In this document: positions 31,414 to 60,474 of the stretch, piece after piece | How positions within the stretch are numbered: the stretch's first letter is position 1 | Layout of the letters: each line of letters begins with the position of its first letter | NCBI RefSeq assembly: GCF_001577365.1 | Contig: NZ_CP014513.1 | Coordinates: 3,596,001 to 3,660,000 of the forward strand | Source: Frondihabitans sp. PAMC 28766 | Lineage (GTDB): Bacteria > Actinomycetota > Actinomycetes > Actinomycetales > Microbacteriaceae | Reading direction: 5' to 3' | DNA length: 64,000 nt | Position numbers and translations under genes: made by a program | Notes under the pieces: generated by a model | The model's database searches: none | The model's input: only the letters and a program-made list of their open reading frames with translations | What the model was told of the DNA's origin: nothing

Positions 31414-32190
31414 TCAGCCGACGGGCGGCGACCCCGGGTGCTCGTGCATGAAGTCCTGCACCGCGAGCAGGTGCGTCCCCATGCGCAGGCGCGCCCCTTC
31501 CGGGTCGTGGAGCCGCAGCGAGTGCAGGATCGCCCGGTGCTCGCCGTGCGTGACCGCCAGAACACCCTGCTCGGTGATCGCGCGCCAGGTGCGAGCCCGC
31601 AGGGTGCGCGACGACAGCGCCTCGATGAGCGCTTCGAGCGCGGGGTTGCCCGCCGCGTGCGAGACCACACGGTGGAAGGCGATGTCGGCCTCGATGAACG
31701 CGTCGTAGCTCGGGGGCGACCCCGTGGTGGTGAGCGGGTCGACGGAGGCGAGGATCGACTCGGCCTCGTCGAGGGCCTCGTCGCCGATAGTGATGGCCGC
31801 GCGGCCGGCGGCCTCCGTCTCGAGCACCCGGCGCACCGCCTGCACGTGCGACATGTCGGACACGTCCTGCAGGTCGACGAGGAAGCTCATCGGTGCCAGC
31901 AGCAGGCTCGGATCGAGGGAGGTGACGTAGGTGCCGTCGCCCTGCCGGGTCTCGAGCACGCCCATGCTCGCGAGGGCGCGCACTCCCTCGCGCAGCGAAC
32001 TGCGAGAGACGCCGAGTTCGAGCGCCAGGTCTTTCTCGACGGGCAACCGTGATCCGGCCCGCAGCGAACCGCTCGTGATCATGCCTTTGATGCCGTCGAC
32101 GACGGTGTCGGTGCGCGACTGGAGGTTCGGCAGCGGTGCGGGCGCTGCACCCTCCGGGGCCTCGGAGACGGCCTCGCTCTCGGCGCTCAC
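31414..32190 (-). CDS. GntR-family regulator, FCD type, in the fucose-catabolism operon
   Basis: 258 residues. The winged helix LPVEKDLALELGVSRSSLREGVRALASMGVLETRQGDGTYVT is textbook FadR/LldR type; the FCD domain has AFHRVVSHAAGNP and the C-terminal helix with MGTHLLAVQD. GTG start overlapping the upstream SDR stop (GTGA). It is the last gene of the mutarotase-hydrolase-dehydrogenase operon, so it probably senses an L-fucose intermediate and controls this operon and the divergent GH29 gene. Confidence 0.87.
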   Translation of the reverse strand: MSAESEAVSEAPEGAAPAPLPNLQSRTDTVVDGIKGMITSGSLRAGSRLPVEKDLALELGVSRSSLREGVRALASMGVLETRQGDGTYVTSLDPSLLLAPMSFLVDLQDVSDMSHVQAVRRVLETEAAGRAAITIGDEALDEAESILASVDPLTTTGSPPSYDAFIEADIAFHRVVSHAAGNPALEALIEALSSRTLRARTWRAITEQGVLAVTHGEHRAILHSLRLHDPEGARLRMGTHLLAVQDFMHEHPGSPPVG

Positions 32191-32948
32191 GGCGCCTCGA
32201 CCGGCCGGAGCCGCAGCTCTTGCATGCCGCCGTCGACTGCGATGCTCGTGCCGGTCGTCGAGCGGGACCGCGGGCTCGCGAGATAGGCCACTGCCCCCGC
32301 GACCTCGTCGGCCGACACGAGGCGACCGTGCGGCTGGCGAGCCTCGAGGGCCGCCCGCTCGGCGACCGGGTCGGAGGCGCTGTCGAGGAGGCGCTGCACC
32401 CAGGGCGTGTCCGCCGTCCCGGGGTTCACGCAGTTGACCCGGATCCCTTCGCGCAGGTGATCCGTCGCCATGGCGCGTGTGAGCGACAGGACCGCCCCCT
32501 TGGTCGCGCTGTAGAGAGCGCGCTCGGGCAGGCCCGCCGTCGCGGCGATCGAGCAGGTGTTGACGATGGCTGCGGCCGGCGACTGCCGGAGGTGCGGCAG
32601 AGCGGCGCGGCTCACCCGGACGGCGCCCACGACGTTCACGTCGAAGACCGTGTGCCACTGCTCGTCGGAGTTGGCCTCGATGGTGCCCTGGGCGCCGATG
32701 CCCGCGTTGTTGATGACGATGTCGAGCCGCCCGAAGTGCTCGACGACGGCCTCGACAGCGGCCGTGACCGAGGCGTCGTCGCTGACGTCGGTGGCGATGG
32801 CGAAGGTGCCGGCCTGGGCCCCCTCGGGGTTGAGGTCGAGAACCGCCACGTCGGCCCCGCCGTCGGTGAGGGCGCGGACGATCGCGGCGCCGATGCCGGA
32901 TGCCCCGCCGGTGACGAGTGCGGTGAGCCCGTCGAATTCGCTGGTCAT
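32187..32948 (-). CDS. SDR oxidoreductase, likely 2-keto-3-deoxy-L-fuconate 4-dehydrogenase
   Basis: 253-residue classical SDR: TGGASGIG (13-20), NNAG, catalytic serine in NTCSIAA (S133) and YSATK (Y146, K150). In the non-phosphorylating L-fucose route a homologous SDR oxidises 2-keto-3-deoxy-L-fuconate to the 2,4-diketo acid, which the FAH hydrolase next door then splits. The direct neighbourhood of the hydrolase, mutarotase and fucosidase makes this assignment likely, though L-fucose 1-dehydrogenase is another SDR activity in such loci. Confidence 0.8.
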   Translation of the reverse strand: MTSEFDGLTALVTGGASGIGAAIVRALTDGGADVAVLDLNPEGAQAGTFAIATDVSDDASVTAAVEAVVEHFGRLDIVINNAGIGAQGTIEANSDEQWHTVFDVNVVGAVRVSRAALPHLRQSPAAAIVNTCSIAATAGLPERALYSATKGAVLSLTRAMATDHLREGIRVNCVNPGTADTPWVQRLLDSASDPVAERAALEARQPHGRLVSADEVAGAVAYLASPRSRSTTGTSIAVDGGMQELRLRPVEAP

Positions 32949-32984: not shown

Positions 32985-33833
32985 TCACGCATCGAAGAAC
33001 TCCTGTCGCGCGCGGCCGAGACCCGCGATCTCGATTTCGACCACGTCGCCCGAGGTGAGGTAGGGGAAGCGGCCCGACAGAGCGACACCGGCAGGGGTGC
33101 CGGTCAGGATGAGATCGCCGGCCTCGAGCTCCATGAACTGGCTGAGGTACCAGACGAGGTGGTCGACGCCGAAGACGAGGTCGGCCGTCGTCGAATCCTG
33201 CCGCGGGTCGCCGTTGACGAAGCTCTGCAGGCGCAGGTTCTCGTGCGAGACCTCGTCAGGCGTGACGAGCCAGGGGCCGGTCGGGCTGAAGCCCGGAGCC
33301 GACTTGCCCTTCGACCACTGGCCGCCCGAGATCTCGAGCTGGAATTCACGTTCGGAGACGTCGTTGGCTGCCACGAACCCGGCGATGTGCGCGGCGGAGT
33401 CGCTCGGCGACCCGAGGTACGTCGCGTTCCGGCCGATGACGACGCCGAGCTCGACCTCCCAGTCGGTCTTGGTGCTGCCGCGAGGGATGGCGACACGGTC
33501 GTTCGGGCCGACGACGGTGTTCGGCGTCTTGAAGAAGATGACGGGCGAGGTCGGCGGCTCGGATCCTGACTCGGCCGCGTGCGCCGCGTAGTTCATGCCG
33601 ATGCAGATGACGGCGCTCGGGCGTGCGATGGGGGCGCCGACGCGAAGCGACTCCGCGCCCTCGAGCAACGGCAGCTCGCCCGCCTCGAGCGCGGACCGGA
33701 CGGCCGCGGGGCCGCCGCCGGCGAAGAAGCGCCCGTCGATGTCGGGGGTGATGCCCTGGAGGTCGTAGACCCCGTCGTCAGTCATGAGGACGGGCGTCTC
33801 GTGACCCTTCGCGCCCAACCGAGCGAACTTCAT
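32985..33833 (-). CDS. FAH-family hydrolase, likely 2,4-diketo-3-deoxy-L-fuconate hydrolase
   Basis: 282 residues. FAH-fold metal ligands E126 and E128 (WEVELGVVIG) and D158 (ANDVSER), with catalytic-dyad histidine H85 in GMNYAAHAAE and the FKTPNTVVGP substrate loop. In the L-fucose route this enzyme cleaves 2,4-diketo-3-deoxy-L-fuconate to pyruvate and L-lactate. GAAGGAG precedes the ATG at 33833, and the start overlaps the mutarotase stop (ATGA). Acylpyruvase or fumarylacetoacetate activity is the fallback reading. Confidence 0.85.
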   Translation of the reverse strand: MKFARLGAKGHETPVLMTDDGVYDLQGITPDIDGRFFAGGGPAAVRSALEAGELPLLEGAESLRVGAPIARPSAVICIGMNYAAHAAESGSEPPTSPVIFFKTPNTVVGPNDRVAIPRGSTKTDWEVELGVVIGRNATYLGSPSDSAAHIAGFVAANDVSEREFQLEISGGQWSKGKSAPGFSPTGPWLVTPDEVSHENLRLQSFVNGDPRQDSTTADLVFGVDHLVWYLSQFMELEAGDLILTGTPAGVALSGRFPYLTSGDVVEIEIAGLGRARQEFFDA

Positions 33834-34171
33834 CGTGCGTCTCCTTCGTGCTGCTTCTGCGTCTCGAAGTCCCACACCTGCCGGAGCAGCGGGGACCCTC
33901 CATCTTCGCCCTCCACGAACCGTTCGACGAACGGGCCGATCATCGCCTGCCAGCGCCTGTTCGCCGGATCGTCCGCCAGGCGGGCGTCGGCCGCGGCGTA
34001 GTCGTCGGCGACGACGACGTGGAAGAGGTCGCGGCCCGACCTCCAGATCGTCCAGGAGGTGATCCCGACGCGGTCGAAGGATTCCACGAGATCGTGGGGC
34101 ACGGCGCCGTGAGTCTTCTCGTAGTCGGCTTCGGACCCCTCGCGAATGATCGAATGCAAAGCGACTCGCAC
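33830..34171 (-). CDS. L-rhamnose/L-fucose mutarotase (RhaM/COG3254 family)
   Basis: 113-residue dimeric alpha/beta-barrel protein; VALHSIIREGSEADYEKTH, TSWTIWRSGRDLFHVVVADDY and PANRRWQAMIGPF match the rhamnose-mutarotase family. It interconverts alpha and beta anomers of a 6-deoxy sugar. Beside fucosidase and fucose enzymes, L-fucose is the likely substrate. GTG start after GAGG. First gene of the operon, divergent from the GH29 gene. Confidence 0.83.
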   Translation of the reverse strand: MRVALHSIIREGSEADYEKTHGAVPHDLVESFDRVGITSWTIWRSGRDLFHVVVADDYAAADARLADDPANRRWQAMIGPFVERFVEGEDGGSPLLRQVWDFETQKQHEGDAR

Positions 34172-34301: not shown

Positions 34302-35582
34302 ATGGCGACCGAATCCTCGGCCTGGTTCACACACGACCGCTTCGGCATGTTCGTACACTGGGGCCTGTATGCCCTGCCCGCCCGTCACGAGTGGGTCATG
34401 AACTACGAGCGCATCACCACAGGCGACTACGAGAAGTACTTCGACCACTTCGAACCCGATCTCTACGACCCGGATGCGTGGGCGCAGGCCGCCAAGGACG
34501 CCGGTATGAAGTACGTCGTGCTCACCACAAAGCACCACGAGGGGTTCTGCCTCTGGGACACCGCGCTGACCGACTACAAGTCGACGAACACGATGGCCGG
34601 GCGCGACCTCGTCCGCCCGTTCGTCGATGCGGTCCGCAAGGCGGGCCTCAAGGTCGGGTTCTACCACTCGCTGATCGACTGGCACCACCCCGACTTCCTG
34701 GTCGACGGCCGCCACCCCAACCGCGACGACCCCGATGCCGAAGAGCAGAACGTCGGCCGCGACATGGCGAAGTACCGCGAATACCTCCACGGGCAGGTGC
34801 GCGAGCTGCTGACCGACTACGGCCGGATCGACTACCTCTTCTTCGACTTCTCGTACAAGGGCGACCCCCGCGGCGAGGTCTGGGGCGCGAAGGGCCGCGA
34901 CGACTGGGACTCCGAGAAGCTCCTGGCGATGTGCCGCGAGCTGCAGCCCGGCATCCTGGTCAACGACCGCCTCGACATCCCCGGCGACTTCGTGACTCCC
35001 GAGCAGTACCAGCCGGCCGGCCCGATGACGGAGGGCGGCGAAGAGGTGCTGTGGGAGGCGTGCCAGACGCTCAACGGCAGCTGGGGCTACTTCCGGGACA
35101 ACGACAACTACAAGAGCCCCGACCTGCTGGTCAGGATGCTGATCGACGGGGTCTCGAAGAACGGCAACCTCCTGCTCAACGTCGGCCCGACCGCCCGCGG
35201 CGTCTTCGAGGCCGAGGCCGTCGACTCGCTCTCGCAGATCGGCGACTGGATGAGGTTCCATTCGCGCTCGATCTACGGAGCCGGCGCCTCGTCGTTCACG
35301 CCGCCGCCTGACGCACGCTACACGCAGCGCGGAGACCGCCTCTACCTGCACCTCTTCGCGTGGCCGTTCGAGCACGTCCACCTGCCCGGCCTCGCCGGCC
35401 GTGTCGAGTACGCCCAGCTGCTGAACGACGCGTCCGAGGTCTTCATGCAGGAGATCGATCCCGACGCCGTCGGATTCCACACCGGCATGGGCGCTCAGCC
35501 GCCCGGCACCCTGACGCTGACCTTGCCCGTCGTCCGCCCGGACGTCGCCGTGCCCGTCGTCGAGCTCTTCCTGACCAGTTGA
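34302..35582 (+). CDS. Alpha-L-fucosidase, GH29, copy 1
   Basis: 426 residues, no signal peptide, so it acts on imported fucosides in the cytoplasm. GH29 landmarks: FGMFVHWG near the start, TTKHHEGF (75-82), and the nucleophile aspartate D182 in YLFFDFSYKG, then NGNLLLNVGPTARG. It releases L-fucose with retention of configuration. AAAGGAGA precedes the ATG. A single gene divergent from the fucose-catabolic operon. Confidence 0.92.
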   Translation: MATESSAWFTHDRFGMFVHWGLYALPARHEWVMNYERITTGDYEKYFDHFEPDLYDPDAWAQAAKDAGMKYVVLTTKHHEGFCLWDTALTDYKSTNTMAGRDLVRPFVDAVRKAGLKVGFYHSLIDWHHPDFLVDGRHPNRDDPDAEEQNVGRDMAKYREYLHGQVRELLTDYGRIDYLFFDFSYKGDPRGEVWGAKGRDDWDSEKLLAMCRELQPGILVNDRLDIPGDFVTPEQYQPAGPMTEGGEEVLWEACQTLNGSWGYFRDNDNYKSPDLLVRMLIDGVSKNGNLLLNVGPTARGVFEAEAVDSLSQIGDWMRFHSRSIYGAGASSFTPPPDARYTQRGDRLYLHLFAWPFEHVHLPGLAGRVEYAQLLNDASEVFMQEIDPDAVGFHTGMGAQPPGTLTLTLPVVRPDVAVPVVELFLTS

Positions 35583-35666: not shown

Positions 35667-35703
35667 CGGCGTTTCCCAGCAGGACTTCGACAAAGGTGAC
35701 GAT

Positions 35704-36117
35704 GTGCTCAGATACGACTTGCTCCACCCGCCGCTGCTCTCGGCCCTCGGCGCCGCGGGCCACGGCTCGAAGATCCTGCTGGCCGACGGCAACTACCCGT
35801 ACCTCACGGTCCGCAACCCGCGCGCAGAGCTCGTCCACCTGAATCTGCGACCCGGGGTGCTCACAGTGAACGAGGTGCTGTCGACCCTTCTCGGGGCGGT
35901 CAACTTCGAATCGGCGACCCTCATGGGCCCGGGCGACGGCACCGTCGTCGAGGCGCACAGCGACTACCGCTCACTCCTCGGCGACGACGTCCCGTTCGAC
36001 CTCGTCGACCGGTTCGCGTTCTACGACGTCGCCCGCTCGGACGACGTCGGGCTCATTGTGGCGACGGCAGACCAGCGGCTCTTCGCGAACCTGCTGCTGA
36101 CCATCGGACTGAGGTAG
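35704..36117 (+). CDS. fucU: RbsD/FucU-family sugar mutarotase
   Basis: 137 residues: MLRYDLLHPPLLSALGAAGHG with the catalytic-site histidine, LLADGNYP, and LIVATADQRLFANLLL near the end. RbsD and FucU share this fold; FucU catalyses fucose anomer interconversion. Genetic context points to L-fucose. The start is set at GTG 35704 because AAAGGTG sits 5 bp upstream and the length then matches the family; a longer frame opens at 35662. First gene of a five-gene fucoside uptake operon. Confidence 0.82.
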   Translation: MLRYDLLHPPLLSALGAAGHGSKILLADGNYPYLTVRNPRAELVHLNLRPGVLTVNEVLSTLLGAVNFESATLMGPGDGTVVEAHSDYRSLLGDDVPFDLVDRFAFYDVARSDDVGLIVATADQRLFANLLLTIGLR

Positions 36118-36119
36118 TG

Positions 36120-38147
36120 ATGACAGAACTGTTCTTCCCCAAACGCACGGTGCACCTCGACTTCCACACCGGGCCCCAGGTGCCCGGCGTGGGCGCGAAG
36201 TTCGACCCCGAGGCCTTCGCCGACACCTTCGCGCGTGCTGACGTCGACAGCGTGACCGTCTTCGCGAAGTGCCACCACGGGCACCTCTACTACGACACCG
36301 ACCGGCCCGAGCGGCACCCCGGCCTCGCCCGCGACCTCGATCTGCTCGAGCAGCAGATCGAGGCCCTCCACTCGCGCGGCATCCGGGCGCCGATCTACGT
36401 CAGCGTCCAGTGCGACGAGTACGCGGCGAACCTCCACCCCGACTGGATCGCGATGGACGGCCTCGAGCAGGTCAAATGGTCCGACGGCACGTTCGACGCC
36501 GGCTGGCAGATCCTCGATATGTCGAGCCCGTACCAGGACTTCCTCGCCGAGCAGGTGCAGGAGGTCATCGACCGGTTCGCCCCTCTCGACGGGCTCTTCC
36601 TCGACATGTGCTGGGACCAGCCGAGCACCTCCGTGTGGGCCAAGCGCGGGATGCAGGATGCCGGGCGGGATCCTGAATCCGTCGACGACCGGGCCGTCTA
36701 CGCGCGCCAGGTCGCCCACCAGTACATGCAGCGCTTCCAGGCGATGGTCGAGCCGCACCTCGACCCGGAGGTCGCCTCCGGCGTCTGGTTCAACAGCCGG
36801 CCGAAGACCGCTCTCGACGTCGAGGAGAAGTTCTTGCGCCACATCGAGATCGAGGCGCTGCCGTCGGGCGGCTGGGGCTACTCGTTCTTCCCGTACACGG
36901 CGCGGTTCGTGCGCCCCCTGGGCAAACCGACCCTCAGCCACACCGGCCGGTTCCACATGAGCTGGGGCGACAACGGAGGCCTCAAGCCGAAAGCGGCCCT
37001 CCACTACGAGACCAGCCAGATCCTCTCGCAGGGCCTGACCTCGGGCGTCGGCGACCTCCTCGCCCCCTCGGGCGAACTCAACCCCGCCATCTACGACCTC
37101 GTCGGCAGCGCCTATCACCATGTGAAGGCGTGCGAGCCGTTCATCGAGGGCGCCTCGGTGCGCACCGAGGCGGCGCTCGTGATCGACCCGGCACTCGGTG
37201 ACACCCCGGGGCCGTCGGGCATCGGGGCGCTCCGAGGGCTTCAGCAGCTGCGGGTGCAGTTCGACATCGTGCCGCCCTCGGCCGACCTGTCGAGATACGA
37301 GCTCGTGGTGGTGCCCGAGACCACGGCCGTCACCGGCCCCCTCGCCGACAGCCTGGCCGCACGGGCCGCGGCGGGCGCGTCGATCCTGATCTCGCGCGGC
37401 GCCGACTCCGGCAGCGGCGAGCGCGACGAACTGTCCGCGCTCGGCGTGCTGCTCGGCGACGACCTGCCGTACTCGCACGTCTTCCTCCGACCTACGCCCG
37501 CGATCGGCGGGTCGAACGGCTTCGACCACGTCATCTACCGGCGCGGCGTGACCCTCGAGCCGACCGGCGACGCCGAGGTGCTCTGCCAGATCGTGACGCC
37601 CTACTTCGAGCGCGAGTGGGACCACTTCAGCGGCCACTCGTACACGCCGTCGAGCGGCGAGGTCTTCTCGTCGCCCGCCGTCGTGCAGGTCGGCAGCGTG
37701 ATCGTCACCGGCGTCCCGCTGCTGTCGTCGATCGCCACCGACGCGGCACCGGCCTTCCGCGACCTCCTCCGCGCGCTCGTCGACCGACTCCTCCCCCGCC
37801 CGCTCGTCCGTGCCGGCGGCCCGGTCCACCTCGAGACCAGCGTCATGACGACGCCCTCTCGGGCCGTGCTGCACCTCACGAGCTTCGTCTCGACACGGTC
37901 GGCCGAGATCAGCGGCGCAGCGAAAGTGCGCCACACGGGTCTCGACCTCGTCGAGGATCCCTTCCCCCTCGTCGAGGTCGACGTCGCCCTGCGCGTCGAC
38001 CAAGAGATCGCCGCCGTCCACCTGCAACCGGACGGCCTCCCGCTCGACCACACGGTCGAAGACGGCTACCTGAAAATCGCTCCGACCATCCTGAACGGCC
38101 ACGCCATGGTCGTCGTCGACTACGCGGTCGACGCGGCAACAGCGTGA
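36120..38147 (+). CDS. GHL6/GH151-like glycoside hydrolase, copy 1
   Basis: 675 residues. N-terminal TIM-barrel resembling hypothetical glycoside hydrolase 6 (HLDFHTGPQVPGVG, SVTVFAKCHHGHLYYDT, DGLFLDMCWDQP), then a beta-galactosidase-trimerisation-like domain (about 360-560) and a C-terminal beta domain. Proteins of this architecture include GH151, a family with characterised alpha-L-fucosidases. No signal peptide. It lies between a fucose mutarotase and a sugar ABC transporter, which supports a cytoplasmic fucosidase role. Start at 36120 after GAGG; a GTG 3 bp earlier is possible. Confidence 0.75.
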   Translation: MTELFFPKRTVHLDFHTGPQVPGVGAKFDPEAFADTFARADVDSVTVFAKCHHGHLYYDTDRPERHPGLARDLDLLEQQIEALHSRGIRAPIYVSVQCDEYAANLHPDWIAMDGLEQVKWSDGTFDAGWQILDMSSPYQDFLAEQVQEVIDRFAPLDGLFLDMCWDQPSTSVWAKRGMQDAGRDPESVDDRAVYARQVAHQYMQRFQAMVEPHLDPEVASGVWFNSRPKTALDVEEKFLRHIEIEALPSGGWGYSFFPYTARFVRPLGKPTLSHTGRFHMSWGDNGGLKPKAALHYETSQILSQGLTSGVGDLLAPSGELNPAIYDLVGSAYHHVKACEPFIEGASVRTEAALVIDPALGDTPGPSGIGALRGLQQLRVQFDIVPPSADLSRYELVVVPETTAVTGPLADSLAARAAAGASILISRGADSGSGERDELSALGVLLGDDLPYSHVFLRPTPAIGGSNGFDHVIYRRGVTLEPTGDAEVLCQIVTPYFEREWDHFSGHSYTPSSGEVFSSPAVVQVGSVIVTGVPLLSSIATDAAPAFRDLLRALVDRLLPRPLVRAGGPVHLETSVMTTPSRAVLHLTSFVSTRSAEISGAAKVRHTGLDLVEDPFPLVEVDVALRVDQEIAAVHLQPDGLPLDHTVEDGYLKIAPTILNGHAMVVVDYAVDAATA

Positions 38148-38191: not shown

Positions 38192-39529
38192 ATGCACATC
38201 ACCACCAAGAGGCGGACGCTGCTCGCAGCAGCGGCCCTCGCCTCCGCCACAGCACTCGTTTTGACCGGGTGCTCCGGCTCGAGCAGCAACGGCACCGCCT
38301 CCAAGAGCATCACCGTCCAGGTGCAGACCGGGCAGGAGGCCGAGGTCGCCGCCTTCATCAAGGTCTTCAAGAAGCAGCACCCGGGAGACACTGTGAAGAC
38401 CGTGTCCGTCTCGCAGACCGCGAAGACGGGCTCGAACCTGCAGGTCCTGACGTCGAGCAACGCCCCCGACGTCGCGATCGTGCCGACGAACACCCAGGTG
38501 TTCTCGCGCCTGACGCAGGGCAAGCAGCTGCTCTCGCTCAGCGACGTCTGGAAGAAGGCCGACCTTCAGAAGCTCTACGGCAACTCCCTCGCGAACTCGC
38601 TCAAGACGAACGGGACCCCCTACGTCGTCTCGATCGACTCGACGATCTACAACATCGTCTACTACAACAAGGCGCTCTTCAAGAAGGCCGGCATCGCCAC
38701 CCCGACCGATCACCGCATCGCGTCGCTCTCCGACCTGGAGTCGATGGTCACCAAGCTCAAGGGGATCGGCAAGCAGGGTCTGTCGATCGGGCCCGGCGAC
38801 AACTTCCAGTCCAGCTGGATGATCGACGCCTTCCTGCCGACGGCGTCGTCGACCAGCCAGCTGCAGAACTACCTGACGAACTGGGAGTCGAGCAAGACGA
38901 AGATCACGGCGAAGTACACCGACGCCCCCTTCGTCGACTCGATCTCGCGCATCCAGGCGATGGGCAAGGCCGGCGTCTTCCAGACCGGCTACCTCGGCCA
39001 GACCGTGCCGCAGTCGGAGTCGAACTTCGTGCAGCAGAGCGCCGGCATGGTGCTCGACGGCAGCTACAGCCCGGCGACGTTCAAGAAGGACGGCATCAAC
39101 TTCGACTACGACTGGGCGCTCCTGCCTCCGATCGACTCGTCGAAGAAGACGCAGGTCTCGCTGTACAACGGCGACGCCTACGCCATCCCGGCCCGCGCCA
39201 AGAACCCGACCGTCGCGAAGCAGTTCCTCGAGTCGGTCATGTCGGCCGAGGGCCAGACGACGACGATCGCCTCGGGCAGCCTTCCCGCGACGAACAACGT
39301 GCCGAAGAGCGCCTTCAGCGGCACCGCCGTCCAGGTGCAGGAGATCCTCGCCGACGAGGCGAAGAACGGCGGTCAGCCCGGCTGGACCTCGGTCGTGCCC
39401 GGCGGCCTCGGCCAGCAGCTCGTCGACCCGAAGATCCAGGAGCTGCTGAACGGCAACGGCTCGGCTCAGGCGATCGGCCAGGCGGTCGACTCCGAGCTCC
39501 AGACCGTCCGCTCCGGCAACGCCAACTAG
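38192..39529 (+). CDS. CUT1 sugar ABC transporter substrate-binding lipoprotein (fucoside type)
   Basis: 445 residues. Signal peptide with KRR near the start, hydrophobic core and lipobox LTGC (C27). The mature protein has the family-1 fold: FIKVFKKQHPGDTVK, NAPDVAIVP, YNIVYYNKALFKKAGI. GAGAGGAA precedes the ATG. It sits between a GH151-like gene and two permease genes, so the ligand is probably L-fucose or a small fucoside. Confidence 0.88.
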   Translation: MHITTKRRTLLAAAALASATALVLTGCSGSSSNGTASKSITVQVQTGQEAEVAAFIKVFKKQHPGDTVKTVSVSQTAKTGSNLQVLTSSNAPDVAIVPTNTQVFSRLTQGKQLLSLSDVWKKADLQKLYGNSLANSLKTNGTPYVVSIDSTIYNIVYYNKALFKKAGIATPTDHRIASLSDLESMVTKLKGIGKQGLSIGPGDNFQSSWMIDAFLPTASSTSQLQNYLTNWESSKTKITAKYTDAPFVDSISRIQAMGKAGVFQTGYLGQTVPQSESNFVQQSAGMVLDGSYSPATFKKDGINFDYDWALLPPIDSSKKTQVSLYNGDAYAIPARAKNPTVAKQFLESVMSAEGQTTTIASGSLPATNNVPKSAFSGTAVQVQEILADEAKNGGQPGWTSVVPGGLGQQLVDPKIQELLNGNGSAQAIGQAVDSELQTVRSGNAN

Positions 39530-39546
39530 CAATCCGCTGCGGCCCC

Positions 39547-39572: not shown

Positions 39573-39605
39573 TCCGGTCGCCCCTGCAACCGAAAGGAAG
39601 ACATC

Positions 39606-53329: not shown

Positions 53330-55447
53330 GTGACCACCGGCGTTCACTCACGAAGCGCGTGGCTCCATCCCGACCTCGAGGCGATCGCCCCGCGGCCTCG
53401 CCGCAAGGTGCACCTCGACTACCACAACTCGCAGTTCGAGCCGCGGGTCGGCTACGCGTTCGACCCCGACGAGTTCGTCGCGACGCTGAAGAAGGCGTCG
53501 ATCGACTCGATCGTCGTGTTCGCCAAAGACATGCACGGCTACTTCTACTACCCGTCCGAGCACGGCCCGGTGCACCCGGGGCTCGAGGGCCTCGATCTCA
53601 TGGGCGAGCAGGTCGAGGCCTGTCGCCGGGCCGGCATCAAGGTCTACACGTATTACTGCGTCACCTGGGACAACTACCTGGCCGAGCACCACCCCGAGTG
53701 GCTGTGCTTTCGCCGCGAGCGCGACACCTACCTGCCCGCCTTCGACGAGACGCCGAACTGGACGGCGCTCTGCCTCTCGAACGACGACTACGTCGAGCTG
53801 ATGCTCGACCACACCCGCGAGATCCTGTCGCGCTGCCGACCGGACGGGGTCTGGTACGACATGCCGATGCCGAACCCCGAGGTCGAGTGCTTCTGCCACA
53901 ACTGCCTGGAGGCCATCCGGGCCGAGGGCAAAGACCCCTTCGACATCCGGGTCCAGCGCGAGCGCATGCAGGAGCTGCTCACCATGTGGCTGCGGCGCTC
54001 GAAAGAGGTCGTCGACGAGGTGGCGCCGGGTGTCGAGCTCGAGCAGAACAATCAGACGCGGCTGGGTCTGGCCGAGAGAGCCGAGTATCTCTACAACGTC
54101 GACATCGAGGCGCTGCCCAGCGGCGAGTGGGGTTACGGCTACTTCCCGCTCAACGCGCGCTATGTGCGCTCGCTCGACCTCCCGAGTACGGGCATGACCG
54201 GCCGGTTCCTCCTCACCTGGGCCGACTTCGGCGGCCTCAAGTCGGAGAACCAGCTGACCCTCGAGACCGCGTGGATCGCCGCGACGGGCTCGGCGGTCTG
54301 CATCGGCGACCAGGCGCCCCCGTCGGCGCGGCTCGAGCCGGGCGTCTACCGCACGATCGGGGCGGCCTACGGCAGCCTCGCCGCCATCGACGACGTGCTC
54401 GAGGGCGCGGTGGGTGTGGCCGAAGCCGCTCTCGTCGTCTCCGGGCTGCAGCTCGCCGACTACGGCCGCACCGAGCGGCACGGCACACACGCGATCAGCG
54501 ACGGGGCGAGCGGCGCGGCGAAGATGCTGAGCGAGCTCGGGGTGCAGTACGACGTGGTCGAGGCGGGCACGGTCGACCTCGACCGCTACCCGCTCGTGAT
54601 CGTGGCCGAAGGCGACGAGCTCACGCCCGCGGTGACCGCCGAACTCGAAGCGTATGTCGAGGCGGGTGGCACGCTCGTGCACTCGGCCGTGCCGGGCACG
54701 ACCCTCGACGAGGCTCCGTGGCTGCGCGACCTGGGTGTGACGCACAGCGAGCCCTCACCCTTCACGCCCGCCTACCTGCGTATCGCCGACGGCTTCGGCG
54801 ACACGGTCGACGGCTACGACTTCGCGCTCTACGACGGCGCCGACCGCTGGACTCTCGGCGGCGACGCCCCGAGCGACTCGGTGCAGGTCGCCGCAACCCT
54901 CGGCGAGCCGCTCTTCCAGCGCTCACCCGAGCACTACACGAGCCATCACCAGAGCCCGGTCGCCACCCAGACCGGCAAGCCGGTGGTGCTGGTGGGCGAC
55001 CGTCTCGCCGCTTTCGCCTTCCCCGTCGCCAGCGGCTATTACGCCCACGGCTACTGGCTCTACGCCGAGCTCTTCCGCCGCGTGCTCGACTCGGTTCACC
55101 CCGAGCGCCTGGTGCGCTCGTCGGCCCCATCCAGCCTCGAGCTCGGCCTCACGCACCAGCCCGAGACCGCGACCCACGGCGAGCGCTTCATCCTGCACGC
55201 CGTCAACTTCGCGGGCGCGACCCGGCGCGGGCGCGACCACACCGAGTACTTCGACCAGGTGGTGCCCCAGTCGGGCGTTCCGGTCGAGCTCGACCTACCC
55301 CTCGACGTCGCCCGGGTCTACGACGCGCGCACCGGCCTCGACGTCGAGAGCACGGGCGAGGGCGGCAGGATTCAGGTCACGCTGCCCGCGGTCGCCATCC
55401 ACGGTGTGCTGGTGCTCGAGGCGACCCGCCGCAGTGATCTGCCGTGA
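53330..55447 (+). CDS. GHL6/GH151-like glycoside hydrolase, copy 2
   Basis: 705 residues, same architecture as copy 1: HLDYHNSQFEPRVGYAF, SIVVFAKDMHGYFYYPS, VYTYYCVTWDNYL, then the active-site-like stretch DGVWYDMPMPNPEVECFCHNC, a trimerisation-like domain and a C-terminal beta domain. The cysteine cluster (CFCHNC) near the barrel end is absent from copy 1. No signal peptide. GTG start after GAAGGAG. Probably a cytoplasmic fucosidase or related 6-deoxyhexosidase; it leads the operon into the Gfo/Idh gene with a 4-bp overlap. Confidence 0.75.
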   Translation: MTTGVHSRSAWLHPDLEAIAPRPRRKVHLDYHNSQFEPRVGYAFDPDEFVATLKKASIDSIVVFAKDMHGYFYYPSEHGPVHPGLEGLDLMGEQVEACRRAGIKVYTYYCVTWDNYLAEHHPEWLCFRRERDTYLPAFDETPNWTALCLSNDDYVELMLDHTREILSRCRPDGVWYDMPMPNPEVECFCHNCLEAIRAEGKDPFDIRVQRERMQELLTMWLRRSKEVVDEVAPGVELEQNNQTRLGLAERAEYLYNVDIEALPSGEWGYGYFPLNARYVRSLDLPSTGMTGRFLLTWADFGGLKSENQLTLETAWIAATGSAVCIGDQAPPSARLEPGVYRTIGAAYGSLAAIDDVLEGAVGVAEAALVVSGLQLADYGRTERHGTHAISDGASGAAKMLSELGVQYDVVEAGTVDLDRYPLVIVAEGDELTPAVTAELEAYVEAGGTLVHSAVPGTTLDEAPWLRDLGVTHSEPSPFTPAYLRIADGFGDTVDGYDFALYDGADRWTLGGDAPSDSVQVAATLGEPLFQRSPEHYTSHHQSPVATQTGKPVVLVGDRLAAFAFPVASGYYAHGYWLYAELFRRVLDSVHPERLVRSSAPSSLELGLTHQPETATHGERFILHAVNFAGATRRGRDHTEYFDQVVPQSGVPVELDLPLDVARVYDARTGLDVESTGEGGRIQVTLPAVAIHGVLVLEATRRSDLP

Positions 55448-56553
55448 CGGGCCGCCTGTATGCGACTCCGGAGTTCTCGCCCGATCCGGTCTACACGCTG
55501 GAGGCTCCGCGGCATCCGCGCCCCATCGTGATCCTGGGGGCCGGAGGGATCGTGCGCGACGCTCACCTGCCGGCCTACGCGAAGGCCGGCTTCACGGTGG
55601 CCGGGATCTGCGACCGCGACGTACCGAGGGCGCAGAGGCTCGCCGACCAGTACGGCATGGCAGCCGTCTTCGGCTCGGTCGGCGACGCCGTCGCCGCCGC
55701 GCCGACCGACGCCGTCTTCGACCTGGCCCTGATGCCCGAGCACTACGCCGAGGTGCTCGAGCAGCTGCCCGACGGGGCGGCCGTGCTGATCCAGAAGCCG
55801 CTGGGCAACACCTGGGCCGACGTCGAGCGGGTGGTCGAGATCTGCCACCGCAAATCGCTGGTCGCGGCAGTCAACACGCAGCTGCGCTTCGCGCCCTACG
55901 TCGCCGTGGCCCGAGCGCTGATCGCGTCGGGCGAGATCGGCGAGCTCTACGACCTCGAGATCCAGGTCGAGGTGAACACCCCGTGGGAGATGTTCCCCAG
56001 CGTGCTCGCCCTCGACCGCCTCGAGATCAACATGCACAGCGTGCACTACCTCGACCTCGTGCGCAGCTTCGTCGGCGACCCCGACAGCGTGTCGGCCGTC
56101 ACCGTTCGTCACCCCGAGAAGACGCACGCCAACTCGCGCTCGGCCATCGTCTTCCACTACGGCGGCCGGCCCCTGCGCGCACTCGTGACGACCAACCACG
56201 ACCACCACTTCGGCGAGAAGTACGAGCAGAGCTACGTCAAGTGGGAGGGCACGAAAGGCGCGCTCCGGGCGCAGATGGGGTTGCTCATGGCGTACCCCGA
56301 GGGTCGAGAAGACCTCCTCGAGATCCAGCGCGACTCCGACGATCCGGCGTCGTGGCAGTCCGTGCCGTTCGACGGCACCTGGTTCCCCGACGCCTTCGTG
56401 GGCTCGATGGGCGCACTGATGCGCTACCTCGAGGGGTCGGTGCCCAATCTGCCCACGAGCATCGACGATGTGCTCGTCACAATGGCCACTGTCGAGGCGG
56501 CCTATGAGGCGAGTGGTGTCGGCGGAGTCCCGATCCGCACATTATTGAACTGA
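55444..56553 (+). CDS. Gfo/Idh/MocA-family oxidoreductase
   Basis: 369 residues. Rossmann motif VILGAGGIVRDAHLPAY, then VLIQKPLGN, where the usual EKP is QKP with lysine K118 kept, and MHSVHYLDLVRSF in the C-terminal domain. Members oxidise or reduce sugars, inositols or sugar amines with NAD(P). GTG start overlapping the GH151 stop. It may pre- or post-process a sugar released by that glycosidase, for example in oxidative glycoside cleavage. Confidence 0.85.
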   Translation: MTGRLYATPEFSPDPVYTLEAPRHPRPIVILGAGGIVRDAHLPAYAKAGFTVAGICDRDVPRAQRLADQYGMAAVFGSVGDAVAAAPTDAVFDLALMPEHYAEVLEQLPDGAAVLIQKPLGNTWADVERVVEICHRKSLVAAVNTQLRFAPYVAVARALIASGEIGELYDLEIQVEVNTPWEMFPSVLALDRLEINMHSVHYLDLVRSFVGDPDSVSAVTVRHPEKTHANSRSAIVFHYGGRPLRALVTTNHDHHFGEKYEQSYVKWEGTKGALRAQMGLLMAYPEGREDLLEIQRDSDDPASWQSVPFDGTWFPDAFVGSMGALMRYLEGSVPNLPTSIDDVLVTMATVEAAYEASGVGGVPIRTLLN

Positions 56554-56605: not shown

Positions 56606-56626
56606 GATTGATCGTATGTCTAGACT
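56606..56626. promoter_or_regulatory. Conserved 21-bp promoter block (copy 2), GTCTAGAC core
   Basis: Starts GATTGATCGTATG and contains the perfect palindrome GTCTAGAC (56618-56625), matching the GTnTAnAC consensus of HutC-type GntR regulators. It differs from copy 1 (43852-43872) at two positions. It lies 49 bp before the second GH29 gene. Confidence 0.65.
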
Positions 56627-56675: not shown

Positions 56676-58052
56676 ATGGCGATGTTCAAGCCCGACTCCG
56701 TCCGGCCCGCCCCCTACGAGAAGTTCGCGCACCAGAGCCCCGCCTGGTTCACCGACGCGAAGCTCGGCATCTTCGTTCACTGGGGCGCCTACTCGGTCGC
56801 CGCCTGGGCCGAGCCCCTCGGCGACATGGGCACCGACGAGGTGCCCGACTCGTTCGCCCGCAACCCCTACGCCGAGTGGTACATGAACACCTCCAGGATC
56901 GAGGGCAGCCCGGCGTGGAAGCACCACCGGGAGGTCTTCGGAGGCGCCGACTACTACGACCTCCTCGACCTCTGGAGGGCCGAGAACTTCGACGCCGACG
57001 AGGTGCTCGCTCTCGTCAAGCACACCGGCGCCCGCTACTTCGTGCCGACCACGAAGCACCACGACGGCATCACCCTGTGGGACGCGCCCGAGACGGGCGA
57101 CCTCAACACGGTGGCCCGCGGCCCGAAGCGCGACCTGGTCGCCGAGTTCGCCGATGCGACGCGCCGCGCGGGCCTCAAGTTCGGGGTCTACTACTCGGGC
57201 GGCCTCGACTGGCACTTCGCCCCGGCGCCACCGCTCGTCGACAAGCCCGACGACCTCGACGAGATGTTCTCGTCGCGCCCCGTCGACGACTCCTACGCCC
57301 GCTACGCCTTCACCCACGTCGACGACCTGATCACGAAGTTCGCGCCCGACGTGCTCTGGGACGACATCGACTGGCCCGACGCGGGCAAGCCGCCCGGCGA
57401 CCACAGCCTCGTGAGGCTGTTCGAGCGCTACTACGCTGCCGTGCCGGAGGGCATGATCAACGACCGCTGGGGCGACACCCACTGGGACTACCGCACCACC
57501 GAGTACGCCATGGGCGCGACGACCGGCTCGGACGAGCCGTGGGAGAACTGCCGAGGCGTCGGCTACTCGTTCGGCTACAACCAGCTCGAAGACGAGACGA
57601 CCACGCTCTCGGGCGACGAGCTGATCCGCCATTTCGTCGACGTCGTGTCGCGCGGCGGCAACCTTCTGCTCAACATCGGCCTGATGGCCGACGGCACTGT
57701 GCCTCCGATCCAGCGCCGCAGCCTAGAGGCCCTCGGCGACTGGAACGCCGCGCACGGCGACGCGATCTTCTCGTCCGTGATCGTCGACTCTGCAGTCGCG
57801 CGGCCGAGCAACGAGCCGTGGGTGCGCTGGACGGCTACCGATGCGGGGGTGCGCGCGATCGTCGATGCCGACGGCGAGGTGCGGTTGGATGCCGATGCCG
57901 CGCTCCTCGATCCTGCGACCGCCGTTCTCAGTGACGGAGCCGCGGTGACCGTGAACCTCGACGGCGACTCTCTCGTCGTGACGCTGCCGCCGCGCGCGGC
58001 CGGCGCCGGTCCGCACGTCGTCACGTTCGCGACGGCAGCCGTCTCGCGATGA
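56676..58052 (+). CDS. Alpha-L-fucosidase, GH29, copy 2
   Basis: 458 residues, no signal peptide. KLGIFVHWGAYSV, the TTKHHDG histidine pair (126-131), and the nucleophile in VLWDDIDWP (probably D230). C-terminal beta-sandwich from about 350. This copy has the longer GH29-A style N-terminus compared with copies 1 and 3. Its stop overlaps the third GH29 gene by 4 bp. Confidence 0.9.
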   Translation: MAMFKPDSVRPAPYEKFAHQSPAWFTDAKLGIFVHWGAYSVAAWAEPLGDMGTDEVPDSFARNPYAEWYMNTSRIEGSPAWKHHREVFGGADYYDLLDLWRAENFDADEVLALVKHTGARYFVPTTKHHDGITLWDAPETGDLNTVARGPKRDLVAEFADATRRAGLKFGVYYSGGLDWHFAPAPPLVDKPDDLDEMFSSRPVDDSYARYAFTHVDDLITKFAPDVLWDDIDWPDAGKPPGDHSLVRLFERYYAAVPEGMINDRWGDTHWDYRTTEYAMGATTGSDEPWENCRGVGYSFGYNQLEDETTTLSGDELIRHFVDVVSRGGNLLLNIGLMADGTVPPIQRRSLEALGDWNAAHGDAIFSSVIVDSAVARPSNEPWVRWTATDAGVRAIVDADGEVRLDADAALLDPATAVLSDGAAVTVNLDGDSLVVTLPPRAAGAGPHVVTFATAAVSR

Positions 58053-59368
58053 CTGGCTCCGTGCGCGATGGCGTCGACCTGGCCGACTGGTTCACGGGCG
58101 CCGGGCTCGGCGTCTTCGTGCACTGGGACCACGCCAGCCAGCAGGGCATCGAGATCTCGTGGCCGATCGTCGGAGAGTCGATCATCCCCGGCCGGGATCG
58201 ACCCGAAGACGAGGTGACGGTCGAGCAGTACCACTCGTCTGCGGCGACCTTCGACCCGACTCGATGGAACCCGGCAGCCGTCGCGCGCCTGATCCGGGCC
58301 TCGGGCGCGCGCTACGTGGTCTTCACCGCGCGGCACCACTCGGGCTATGCGATGTACCACACCCGGTTCTCCGACTTCTCGGTCGAGCACTCCCCCTACG
58401 GCCGCGACATCACGCGCGAATTCGTCGACGCAGCCCGCGCCGAAGGCCTTCGCATCGGCGTCTATTACAGCCTGCCCGACTGGCACCACGTCGACTATCC
58501 CGCCTTCACCGACGCCGACCGCCCCTACCCGGCCGAGCATCAGCCCCAGTTCGACCCGCAGGATGCCACACAGCGTCACCGCCGCCCCTCGCCCGAGGCC
58601 TGGGCGCGCTACGTCACCTACCTGCGAGACCAGCTCACCGAGCTGCTGACCGACTACGGGCGCGTCGACCTCTTGTGGTTCGACGGCGAGTGGGAGCGGA
58701 CCGCCGACGAATGGCACACCCGCGAGTTGCGGCAGCTGATCAAGTCACTGCAGCCGGACGTGATCATCAACGACCGGCTGACCGACGCCGGCGACTACGC
58801 GACGCCCGAGCAGGGGCTGCCGAGCACACCCCCGGCCGGCCCGTGGGAGCTCTGCATGACCATGAGCGACGCCTGGGCCTATCGTCCGACCGACACCGCC
58901 TACAAGTCCTCGCGCACCCTCGTCGAAATGCTGATCGAGACGACGAGCCGCGGCGGCAACCTGCTCGTCAACGTCGGGCCGCGGGGCGACGGGTCGATCC
59001 CCGAGCCGGAGACGGTGCGGCTGAAAGAGATCGGCTCGTGGATCGCCGGCCACGGCGAAAGCGTGATCGGCGTCGAGCCCGACCTGGCGATCGAGTTCTC
59101 CGGGCCGGTCACCCGGCGCCCGGAGACGATCTACCTGCATCTCGTGGCCCGGCCCGTCGAGGCCTTCACCGTGCGGGGCGTGCCCGTCGGGCGCGTCCGC
59201 GGCGTTCGCCTCCTGGGGGCGGAAACCTCTCTCGGCTTCACCGCCGACCGCAACGTGCACGAATTCGTCGCCGACGAAAAGGCCCGCATTGGAGAGCTGC
59301 GCATTGAGGCGCCAGAGCCGACCGGCGCCCTCGTCGACGTCGTCGCCATCGAGCTGGAGCCCGTGTGA
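58049..59368 (+). CDS. Alpha-L-fucosidase, GH29, copy 3
   Basis: 439 residues, no signal peptide. GLGVFVHWDHAS near the start (Asp in place of the usual Gly after HW), FTARHHSGY (TKHHxG variant with Arg for Lys), nucleophile D212 in LLWFDGEWE, and GGNLLVNVGPRGDG. Substitutions around the active site suggest a linkage or substrate different from copies 1 and 2. Overlaps both neighbours by 4 bp. Confidence 0.88.
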   Translation: MTGSVRDGVDLADWFTGAGLGVFVHWDHASQQGIEISWPIVGESIIPGRDRPEDEVTVEQYHSSAATFDPTRWNPAAVARLIRASGARYVVFTARHHSGYAMYHTRFSDFSVEHSPYGRDITREFVDAARAEGLRIGVYYSLPDWHHVDYPAFTDADRPYPAEHQPQFDPQDATQRHRRPSPEAWARYVTYLRDQLTELLTDYGRVDLLWFDGEWERTADEWHTRELRQLIKSLQPDVIINDRLTDAGDYATPEQGLPSTPPAGPWELCMTMSDAWAYRPTDTAYKSSRTLVEMLIETTSRGGNLLVNVGPRGDGSIPEPETVRLKEIGSWIAGHGESVIGVEPDLAIEFSGPVTRRPETIYLHLVARPVEAFTVRGVPVGRVRGVRLLGAETSLGFTADRNVHEFVADEKARIGELRIEAPEPTGALVDVVAIELEPV

Positions 59369-60474
59369 CCGGCGTGGCCGCGTCGCGAGATGCAATCGTC
59401 CGTGCCGAGGCGTGGCTCTGCGACCTCCCGGTCGAGACCGTGCGCACCGACGCGATGCAGAGCTTCCTCTCGCAGGAGACGATCTTCGTCCGCATCGAGA
59501 CGGCATCGGGTGCCACCGGGCTCGGCTACAGCTACACGATCGGCACCGGAGGCGGCGCCGTCCTCGACCTCCTCCGCACGGTGTTGCTGGACGCCGTCAC
59601 GGGCCTCGACGCCTCCCGCCACGAGGCCGTCTGGCGGGCGATGATCTCGTCGACCCGCGCGACGACAGTGGGTGCGGTGAGCTCGCTCGCCTTCGCCGCC
59701 ATCGACACGGCCGTCTGGGACGTGAAGGCGAAGTCCAGCAACGCGCCCCTCTGGATCGCCGCCGGTGGCGCCCGCGAGTCGATCCCGCTCTACGACACCG
59801 AGGGCGGGTGGCTGCACCTCAGCGGCGACGAACTCGTCGAGAGCGCTCTCTCCGCGCAGCGCCACGGCCTCGGCGGCGTCAAGATCAAGGTCGGCAAGCC
59901 GCGCGGTGCCGAAGACGCCGAGCGCCTGCGGGCCGTGCGCGACGCCGTCGGCTGGGGCTTCGACATCATGGTCGACGCCAACCAGGCCTTCACCGCGGCC
60001 GAGGCGATCCGGCGCGCAGCACAGTTCGACGACATCGGGCTGGCGTGGTTCGAAGAGCCGCTGCCCGCCGAAGACGTCTCGGGGCATGCCTCGCTCGCGA
60101 GATCTTCGAGCATCCCGATCGCGGTCGGAGAGAGCATGTACTCGATCGGACACTTCAAGGAGTATCTGCACGCGGGCGCCGCCTCGATCCTGCAGCCCGA
60201 CGTCGCGCGGATCGGCGGAATCACGCCCTGGCTCAAGGTCGCCCACCTCGCCGAGGCCTACAACGTCGCCGTCGCGCCGCACTTCTTGATGGAGCTGCAC
60301 GTCGCGCTGACCTGCGCGGTGCCCAACTCGCTCTACCTCGAGCACATCCCGCAGCTGCGCGCCCTCACGAACGGCGACATGGCGATCGAGTCGGGCGCCG
60401 GAGTCCCCTCCGACACCCCCGGCCTCGGCATCGACTGGAACCTCGACGCGATCGACGGGCTGCGGGTTCGGTAG
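59365..60474 (+). CDS. Mandelate racemase/enolase-superfamily dehydratase
   Basis: 369 residues. Catalytic KIKVGK on strand 2; metal ligands in MVDANQ (Asp), WFEEPL (Glu) and VGESMY (Glu); histidine in APHFLMELH. This is the mandelate-racemase-type subgroup, clearly distinct from the L-fuconate dehydratase at 44.9 kb. Probably dehydrates another aldonic acid (for example from a different 6-deoxy sugar or galactose). GTG start overlapping the GH29 stop. Last gene of the operon. Confidence 0.85.
   Translation: MTGVAASRDAIVRAEAWLCDLPVETVRTDAMQSFLSQETIFVRIETASGATGLGYSYTIGTGGGAVLDLLRTVLLDAVTGLDASRHEAVWRAMISSTRATTVGAVSSLAFAAIDTAVWDVKAKSSNAPLWIAAGGARESIPLYDTEGGWLHLSGDELVESALSAQRHGLGGVKIKVGKPRGAEDAERLRAVRDAVGWGFDIMVDANQAFTAAEAIRRAAQFDDIGLAWFEEPLPAEDVSGHASLARSSSIPIAVGESMYSIGHFKEYLHAGAASILQPDVARIGGITPWLKVAHLAEAYNVAVAPHFLMELHVALTCAVPNSLYLEHIPQLRALTNGDMAIESGAGVPSDTPGLGIDWNLDAIDGLRVR

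Follow-up and report, generated by a model that had tools for sequence, protein, structure and literature searches.

The 64,000-nucleotide window analysed here, which spans positions 3596001–3660000 of the genome of Frondihabitans sp. PAMC 28766 (4.77 Mb in four contigs), carries a locus whose gene content supports its assignment to the intracellular catabolism of fucosides and fucose. Embedded in this locus are genes for a CaiB-type family III coenzyme A (CoA)-transferase (CaiB), a cytosolic protein with a predicted sugar-binding-protein (SBP) fold (SBP2), a MaoC-type hydratase (MaoC) and a GFO/IDH/MocA dehydrogenase (GFO), referred to below as the CoA module. The gene set, its recurrence, its linkage, the catalytic-type residues and the predicted signal-less fold of SBP2 were observed directly, and we put forward, as a tentative reading short of being probable, that the CoA-transferase and the hydratase form a CaiB/CaiD-like pair that would activate and dehydrate a sugar acid derived from fucose, or a related one.

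The module is apparently undescribed: no description linking fucose or sugar-acid catabolism to a CoA-transferase, CaiB or MaoC module was found in the open-access literature, subscription papers and preprints lying outside the scope of the search. If the proposal is true, aldonates would be dehydrated by a further route in addition to those of the enolase-superfamily, IlvD/EDD and UxaA enzymes, and the SBP fold would have acquired a new function. Soils, plants, algae and the gut commonly offer fucose and fucosides as sources of carbon, and the oxidative pathway for them is regarded as understood; that enzymes of CoA chemistry and a cytosolic “transport” protein travel with it across phyla would point to an unseen branch or to another co-processed sugar. 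Since the genetically tractable Sinorhizobium meliloti carries module genes, the question is directly testable.

Proteins of the CoA module

The CaiB stop and the SBP2 start overlap by four bases, MaoC is divergent, and GFO lies further downstream (Table 1). The module was compared over 39 mapped rows (the window and 38 others), which were picked for holding module genes and hence give no frequencies; two of them, L016 and G101, are one contig (G and L handles designate genomes and loci, respectively). CaiB and SBP2 are adjacent on the same strand, with fewer than 150 bases between the matches, in 31 of these 39 rows, L016 duplicating G101. Of the 38 CaiB copies, 37 retain the aspartate of the PGQD motif, Asp146, and the other is truncated at this point, while Asp38 and His43 of MaoC are kept in all 32 copies; from the respective families, we take these residues to be catalytic. 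The MaoC proteins of the compared loci are 59–74% identical to the window copy (36–38% for second MaoC copies), and the solved close relative is 4FFU (E 1.9e-46).

The AlphaFold structure predicted for SBP2 (pLDDT 93.4, pTM 0.90) was found by Foldseek to be MalE-like, with a TM score of about 0.8. Inspection of the window protein and its homologues revealed no signal peptide or lipobox, and the homologues start straight with the fold's first strand. Export of SBP2 was rejected because its relatives show no N-terminal extension, and the protein is thus predicted to be cytosolic, with the fold of a sugar-binding protein. The correlation of pairwise distances peaked for the CaiB–SBP2 pair at 0.87, a rough value uncorrected for kinship and obtained with SBP2 extracted short in four of 38 loci (38, 38, 136 and 273 amino acids in G101, L016, G054 and G785). 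One cluster of seven homologues joins an SBP2-type protein to an enolase-superfamily enzyme. Four long proteins carry SBP2 fused to other sequence, namely an enolase-superfamily protein, part of an aldehyde dehydrogenase, a LacI regulator and a stretch without assignment; the last three are possible artefacts, and no CaiB–SBP2 fusion was among these four. P0121 (800 amino acids) has the look of a natural SBP2-type/enolase-superfamily fusion.

Distribution of the module within and beyond the family

Occurrence within the family Microbacteriaceae was followed in 150 genomes, that of the window included, with cut-offs of at least 59% identity for CaiB, E 1e-60 for GFO and E 1e-120 for L-fuconate dehydratase. 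A CaiB orthologue occurs in 14 genomes and L-fuconate dehydratase in 57, and all 14 genomes with CaiB also hold the dehydratase (P 4e-7, uncorrected for kinship). The two genes are found within 16 kb of each other in 11 of the 14, the exceptions being G101 and G028, with the dehydratase elsewhere, and G054, where the genes are on separate short contigs. GFO homologues were detected in 13 genomes, 11 of them among the 14 with CaiB and the others in G062 and G096. The gene order in G060 is CaiB–SBP2–MaoC–LacI–AKR1–dehydratase–(GntR)–lactonase–two unassigned frames–GFO–FAH–SDR, where AKR1 is an aldo/keto reductase, FAH a hydrolase and SDR a short-chain dehydrogenase/reductase. In G104, one 20-kb stretch holds RhaM, dehydratase, AKR1, SDR, SBP2, MaoC, lactonase, CaiB, a second MaoC, GFO, FAH, and GntR-like and transporter-like frames, these last two named from their translations.

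SBP2 is rare in sampling across whole phyla, being present in three of 396 genomes when a single sequence was used (E 1e-30, own genome included) and in three of 251 with an alignment (E 1e-50, centre genome included). Proceeding from GH151b, a GHL6-type glycosidase of the window, the module was found whole or for the most part in 11 of 29 named loci, namely actinobacterial L016 (the G101 contig, without a MaoC match) and L017, seven labelled Thermomicrobiales, Chloroflexi or Roseiflexaceae, L018 labelled only “bacterium”, and L040 labelled Singulisphaera. The other 18, which include all loci labelled Acidobacteria/Bryobacterales, Verrucomicrobiota, Opitutaceae and Bacteroidia as well as the Anaerolineae locus L027, gave no CaiB, SBP2 or MaoC match, some of their contigs being short. 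No L-fuconate dehydratase, AKR1, SDR or FAH was present in the fetched stretch of the nine non-actinobacterial module loci; a fucosidase-type GH95 or GH29 glycoside hydrolase (GH) accompanied the module in six of them and a second SBP-like protein in all nine. The genomes of L018, L020 and L021 hold L-fuconate dehydratase elsewhere, partial and at a contig end in that of L020. In loci of Chloroflexota type, the second SBP-like protein near GH151b lies at 8741–9991 in L018, 8734–9963 in L020 (with no visible signal) and 5106–6359 in L021.

Among plasmid records, 224 matched MaoC and 145 matched SBP2, and 13 regions were viewed. The operons of Labrenzia, Shinella, Nitratireductor, S. meliloti ABS7 and Ponticoccus combine CaiB, SBP2, GFO and MaoC with mutarotase, SDR, and L-fuconate dehydratase or UxaA, and a second enolase-superfamily protein is present in alphaproteobacterial operons. 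The pSymB operon of S. meliloti 1021 comprises lactonase, IclR, ABC transporter genes, an enolase-type protein, RhaM, GFO, MaoC, SDR, FAH and L-fuconate dehydratase; unlike the locus described here, it gave no fucosidase match in the fetched stretch and no AKR1 match, with GFO instead. The 28 kb fetched from this strain contain GFO and MaoC but not CaiB–SBP2, which, judging by other strains, would lie just outside; in ABS7 the pair lies past the lactonase at a distance of about 10 kb. Mutarotase and lactonase genes accompany the module in Martelella and Thalassospira, where L-fuconate dehydratase is about 9 kb and about 147 kb away, respectively, on the same plasmids. In Croceibacterium it is accompanied by GH29 and GH42 (the first “beta-galactosidase” being GH42, not GH151), and on a Bacteroidota plasmid from Rufibacter by RhaT, with two CaiB.

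Paralogous CaiB–SBP2 pairs accompanied by a crotonase-family enoyl-CoA hydratase were found in Pseudosulfitobacter, where Pfam confirmed the crotonase, in Sinorhizobium C101, in G142 (same family) and in G210 (same phylum), and Martelella has a CaiB–crotonase set beside its MaoC module. The Pseudosulfitobacter operon encodes GFO, an AP_endonuc_2-type isomerase, a DUF4432 epimerase-like protein, SDR, CaiB, an SBP2-like protein, ECH_1 and FAA hydrolase; no enolase-, IlvD- or UxaA-type dehydratase is annotated in it, and a search covering the plasmid only gave no IlvD or L-fuconate dehydratase match. As two unrelated enoyl-CoA hydratases thus alternate beside one CoA-transferase–SBP pair, real acyl-CoA chemistry can be argued. 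Paralogous sugar operons with CaiB, an SBP2-like protein and crotonase were located in L121 (4776–13103), L123 (9920–17157) and L104 (8550–12300). A third variant, in Methylobacterium nodulans (L122, 8328–12724), consists of MaoC–CaiB–SBP2-like genes and the gene of an AMP-binding protein, with PdxA and a four-carbon acid sugar kinase as neighbours.

The G062 operon consists of RhaT, GFO, lactonase, RhaM, an aldolase of the dihydrodipicolinate synthase (DHDPS) type, SBP2, two CaiB and MaoC, with no enolase- or IlvD-type dehydratase inside it. This genome (98% complete) gave no L-fuconate dehydratase match at E 1e-20; its one IlvD-family gene is outside the operon, and two of its four enolase-superfamily matches, when compared, showed 27–31% identity, one of them having AKR- and lactonase-like neighbours of its own. 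This operon, in which CaiB, SBP2 and MaoC occupy the place of a dehydratase, is the clearest pointer to the mechanism, and from it we propose transfer of CoA to a sugar acid, MaoC-catalysed dehydration and recycling of the CoA.

The surrounding fucose locus

The first-pass annotation had listed fucosidases, a sugar transporter and the enzymes of the non-phosphorylating fucose pathway, and this list was borne out by Pfam scans: three GH29 proteins, two with GHL6 and GH42M domains, two unrelated mutarotases, one lipoprotein-like SBP with two permeases (38192–41409), and members of the AKR, amidohydrolase lactonase, L-fuconate dehydratase, SDR and FAH hydrolase families. All five PF01120 matches of the whole genome are inside the locus (the three GH29 proteins and cross-hits of the two GHL6 proteins). 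Not in that list were CaiB, the cytosolic SBP-like protein, MaoC, GFO, a second AKR, two LacI regulators, a GntR/FCD protein, a second enolase-superfamily protein (MLE2), and a DUF1537 kinase with its threonate-dehydrogenase-like partner.

The first part of the catabolism would follow the known oxidative fucose route, with uptake by the ABC transporter, cytosolic cleavage by GH29 and GH151 enzymes, and the successive action of the mutarotases, AKR dehydrogenase, lactonase, L-fuconate dehydratase, SDR and FAH hydrolase, yielding pyruvate and lactate. The lactonase, SDR and FAH hydrolase are all in the locus, and their homologues stand with fuconate dehydratase elsewhere. Scores against NCBIfam models were below the cut-offs for the lactonase (L-fuconolactonase model, 154 against 400) and the FAH hydrolase (didehydro-deoxy-rhamnonate hydrolase NF053535, 248 bits against 500), and MLE2 reached 281 bits with a talarate/galactarate dehydratase model whose cut-off is 500.

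The pathway had also been called complete, which is unproven, as the frames of two otherwise well-conserved genes, L-fuconate dehydratase and permease A, are broken in this assembly. The dehydratase frame at 45129–46208 matches 2HXT with E 1.9e-147, covering residues 83–434 of 441 only, and alignment of an alphaproteobacterial L-fuconate dehydratase located residues 1–67 of that relative in one frame ending at 45090 and residues 73–421 in another from 45105. Permease A is likewise split across two frames at approximately 40019, as located by tblastn with permease A of G101, and both breaks are visible in a codon-usage frame scan. The dehydratase is a single open frame of 432–574 codons in ten related loci (G043, G115, G060, G091, G007, G011, G039, G104, G130 and G082), and our first guess is a small assembly error at each break.

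The five glycosidases indeed have no visible signal peptide (N-termini of the translations read by eye), and the signal-less fucosidases adjoin SBP1 and the permeases, permease A being broken. In G101, a related transporter (40% identity for the SBP, 57% and 48% for the permeases) is directly beside a GH151b orthologue (78%) and on a different contig from the L-fuconate dehydratase of that genome, an arrangement that fits fucoside import. The locus yielded no ATPase gene, and a single match of the OB_MalK type was detected elsewhere in the genome. Both GHL6 proteins combine the GHL6 domain with a GH42-type trimerisation domain (by Pfam), which we take to be the mark of GH151; the two are therefore assigned, from their domains, to the GH151 kind with a putative fucosidase role. 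GH151 is among the families reported to have exo-fucosidase activity in the part of PMC10154630 available to us. A homologue of GH151a (58%) occurs in one other genome (G058) of the 150.

With regard to regulation, the 21-position element GATTGATCNTATGTCTANACT (19 positions fixed) has exactly two copies in the 4.77-Mb genome, at 43852 and 56606; no third site within three mismatches exists in the whole genome, and none would be expected by chance in the window. The copies precede the AKR1–dehydratase–lactonase operon and the GH29b–GH29c–MLE2 operon, and this shared element makes the two operons look co-regulated. From its neighbourhood, the GntR/FCD protein is a candidate regulator acting at this element; homologues of at least 60% identity were present in seven of 33 mapped locus rows, all seven with fuconate dehydratase. 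A perfect GCGAAACGTTTCGC palindrome at 49240–49253, before AKR2–LacI1, is a possible LacI1 site, and two variants of GCGAAACGTTTCGC, at 35585 and 35652 (35585–35665), precede the FucU–GH151a–transporter operon; GTCAATCGATTGAG is at 49801. LacI operator-like palindromes are not above chance number in the window, and those upstream of CaiB are inconsistent among 13 relatives.

The DUF1537-type four-carbon acid sugar kinase and its L-threonate-dehydrogenase-like partner lie within the locus (41422–43768, minus strand) and were rejected as part of its core, as neither had a match in the 33 mapped locus rows. Upstream of the locus, at 26756–28825, an AP_endonuc_2 protein and a strong aldo/keto reductase are divergent and possibly belong to another sugar pathway. 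The start codons of the GntR/FCD and FucU frames in Table 1 were set in this analysis.

Table 1 Features of the fucose locus and the CoA module (window coordinates)
Feature	Position	Strand	Basis
GntR/FCD regulator	31414..32190	-	PF00392, PF07729
SDR, probable 2-keto-3-deoxy-L-fuconate 4-dehydrogenase	32187..32948	-	Pfam adh_short_C2; specific role from context only
FAH-family hydrolase, probable 2,4-diketo-3-deoxy-L-fuconate hydrolase	32985..33833	-	PF01557; NF053535 below cut-off; homologues in related loci
RhaM-type mutarotase	33830..34171	-	PF05336, E 6e-17
GH29a, alpha-L-fucosidase family	34302..35582	+	PF01120, E 1.2e-92
FucU/RbsD-type mutarotase	35698..36117	+	PF05025
GH151a-like (GHL6 + GH42M)	36117..38147	+	PF14871, PF08532
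SBP1, ABC sugar-binding lipoprotein	38192..39529	+	PF01547; lipobox-like N-terminus read by eye
ABC permease A (broken frame, about 40019)	39606..40570	+	tblastn pieces in two frames; frame scan
ABC permease B	40570..41409	+	PF00528
Shared operator-like element, copy 1, before AKR1 operon	43852..43872	+	exact repeat search
AKR1, probable L-fucose dehydrogenase	43904..44893	+	plant L-galactose dehydrogenase 8SCC, E 2e-37; adjoins fuconate dehydratase in relatives
L-fuconate dehydratase (enolase superfamily), frame broken 45090–45105	44890..46208	+	2HXT, E 1.9e-147
LacN, amidohydrolase-family lactonase	46210..47121	+	PF04909; best PDB match 4DLF
LacI-family regulator 1 (LacI1)	47084..48097	-	profile scans
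AKR2 (DkgA-like)	48104..49207	-	PF00248; NCBIfam score below cut-off
MaoC hydratase, CoA module	49306..49749	-	PF01575; PDB 4FFU, E 1.9e-46
CaiB-type family III CoA-transferase, CoA module	49913..51091	+	PF02515, E 8e-99
SBP2, cytosolic protein with predicted sugar-binding-protein fold	51088..52233	+	predicted structure; Foldseek
LacI-family regulator 2	52233..53276	+	PF00356, PF13377
GH151b-like (GHL6 + GH42M)	53330..55447	+	PF14871
GFO/IDH/MocA dehydrogenase, CoA module	55444..56553	+	PF01408; homologues in module loci
Shared operator-like element, copy 2	56606..56626	+	exact repeat search
GH29b	56676..58052	+	PF01120
GH29c	58049..59368	+	PF01120
MLE2, enolase-superfamily sugar-acid dehydratase-like	59365..60474	+	PF13378/PF02746

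Proposed mechanism, competing explanations and known systems

From the gene content we infer the reactions, the substrates and the role of SBP2 as follows. L-fucose or a close relative of it would be converted to a sugar acid by GFO with the lactonase; CaiB, together with SBP2, would transfer CoA onto this acid, SBP2 presenting or selecting it; MaoC would remove water across C2–C3 to give the 2-keto-3-deoxy acyl-CoA; and CaiB would hand the CoA on to the following substrate, in the manner of CaiB/CaiD with carnitine. The wider proposal, that fucose-type sugar acids are degraded via CoA thioesters in several phyla and that MaoC or crotonase and a CoA-transferase, the latter guided by a cytosolic SBP that was recruited from ABC transporters, together constitute a sugar-acid dehydratase, is advanced with greater reserve, as a conjecture.

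Several observations weigh against the proposal. The dehydratase was found together with the module in eight of ten whole module-bearing genomes searched (the present one included), and even the 1.3-Mb genome G104 holds both; the two thus mostly co-occur, the module was rejected as a strict replacement of L-fuconate dehydratase, and redundant dehydration of fuconate would not be parsimonious, which is the main argument against L-fuconate as the substrate. The module is optional, as nine of 18 fetched loci among the 19 closest dehydratase matches are without it within 20 kb (G022, G026, G071, G087, G036, G085, G097, G009 and G114). MaoC is missing at the G101 locus, GFO of G082 is elsewhere in the genome rather than at the locus, and in S. 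meliloti CaiB–SBP2 is about 18 kb from MaoC. Ponticoccus has kept the module with UxaA in place of L-fuconate dehydratase, the Rufibacter and Croceibacterium loci have no other annotated fuconate-pathway genes nearby, and the CaiB/MaoC region of the window is without the element common to the two fucose operons.

The same CoA chemistry could act on another sugar acid, derived from a sugar that accompanies fucose in its glycans, for example an O-methylated or other 6-deoxy sugar or L-galactose, with the transporter, mutarotase and lactonase shared with the fucose pathway, and we regard this as rather unlikely though deserving of serious weight. It would account for the co-occurrence of dehydratase and module, for the presence of both AKR1 and GFO in ten of the 39 rows (window included) and for the second enolase-superfamily protein of alphaproteobacterial operons, and among solved structures AKR1 is closest to L-galactose dehydrogenases. 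However, the G062 operon reads as one pathway, with one dehydrogenase, lactonase, mutarotase and aldolase in addition to the module, and direct evidence for another sugar is lacking.

It is improbable that the CoA genes act after cleavage, on a short acid such as lactate, a pyruvate-derived acid or a glycan acyl group, with the hydratase adding water. The PDB relatives of CaiB do include formyl-CoA:oxalate and succinate-hydroxymethylglutarate CoA-transferases, and relatives of MaoC include methylmalyl-CoA enzymes and what we take to be itaconyl-CoA enzymes; yet no lyase or thiolase was seen constantly beside the module, the fold of SBP2 is sugar-binding, and mutarotase, lactonase and GFO repeatedly accompany the module. 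An ordinary fucoside locus of the bifidobacterial type with unrelated neighbours would agree with the unmatched DUF1537 kinase and threonate-dehydrogenase-like gene, but is a poor prospect, being disfavoured because module genes are repeatedly found together with fucosidases or fucose genes across several phyla. That SBP2 is an ordinary transporter subunit with a missed signal, and CaiB and MaoC are passengers, is highly improbable despite its MalE fold and the annotation of homologues as “extracellular solute-binding protein” or similar, given homologues that start at the first fold strand, an SBP2 start inside the CaiB stop, a Rufibacter stretch (whose gene table is incomplete) in which SBP2 is accompanied by the RhaT symporter and neither an ABC permease nor an ATPase is annotated, and a homologue cluster fused to an enolase-superfamily enzyme.

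Among known systems, the fum locus of Bifidobacterium kashiwanohense is close to the one described here. As presented in the part of PMC6817895 available to us, it encodes fucosidases of families GH95 and GH29, for which no signal peptide is predicted, together with an ABC SBP and its two permeases, a mutarotase, a lactonase, a dehydrogenase, L-fuconate dehydratase and an aldolase; recombinant work by its authors is consistent with fucosyllactose uptake. The first-pass annotation had judged the import of fucosides for intracellular cleavage unusual; because fum already pairs an ABC transporter with signal-less fucosidases, this strategy is known from bifidobacteria. Common to both loci are the SBP and two permeases, signal-less fucosidases, mutarotase, lactonase, dehydrogenase, L-fuconate dehydratase and a LacI regulator. 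They differ in the final step, performed by the aldolase FumF in fum and by SDR and FAH hydrolase here (no match to a DHDPS-type 2-keto-3-deoxy-fuconate aldolase was found among the locus proteins scanned with Pfam), and the fum gene table in that part of the source names neither CoA-transferase nor MaoC. The available part of PMC6306507 describes CaiB/BaiF proteins enriched in sponge SAR202 Chloroflexi and suggests for them a possible role in feeding substrates into degradation through CoA shuffling that costs no energy; it states their precise function as unknown and connects them neither with fucose catabolism nor with an SBP partner, and PMC11378808, in the part available, treats other fucose genes.

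The locus dehydratase belongs to the same family as the solved enzyme of the oxidative L-fucose pathway (2HXT/1YEY), from which the present locus differs in the broken dehydratase frame and in the parallel CoA module. SBP2 is predicted to share its fold with MalE-like ABC sugar-binding proteins such as 6DTQ and 1EU8 (TM about 0.8), but has no signal peptide and is coupled to CaiB rather than to permeases. The carnitine system CaiB/CaiD consists of a family III CoA-transferase and an enoyl-CoA hydratase. By analogy, the module also sets a family III CoA-transferase, with its catalytic-type Asp, beside an enoyl-CoA hydratase for a proposed dehydration of a 3-hydroxy acid by CoA cycling, and the paralogous operons come closer still through their crotonase-family hydratase. 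The differences are the sugar context, MaoC instead of the crotonase in the window, and the SBP-fold partner, which to our knowledge is not part of carnitine operons. The module is therefore not filed as a member of the CaiB/CaiD system, but it may work like that pair.

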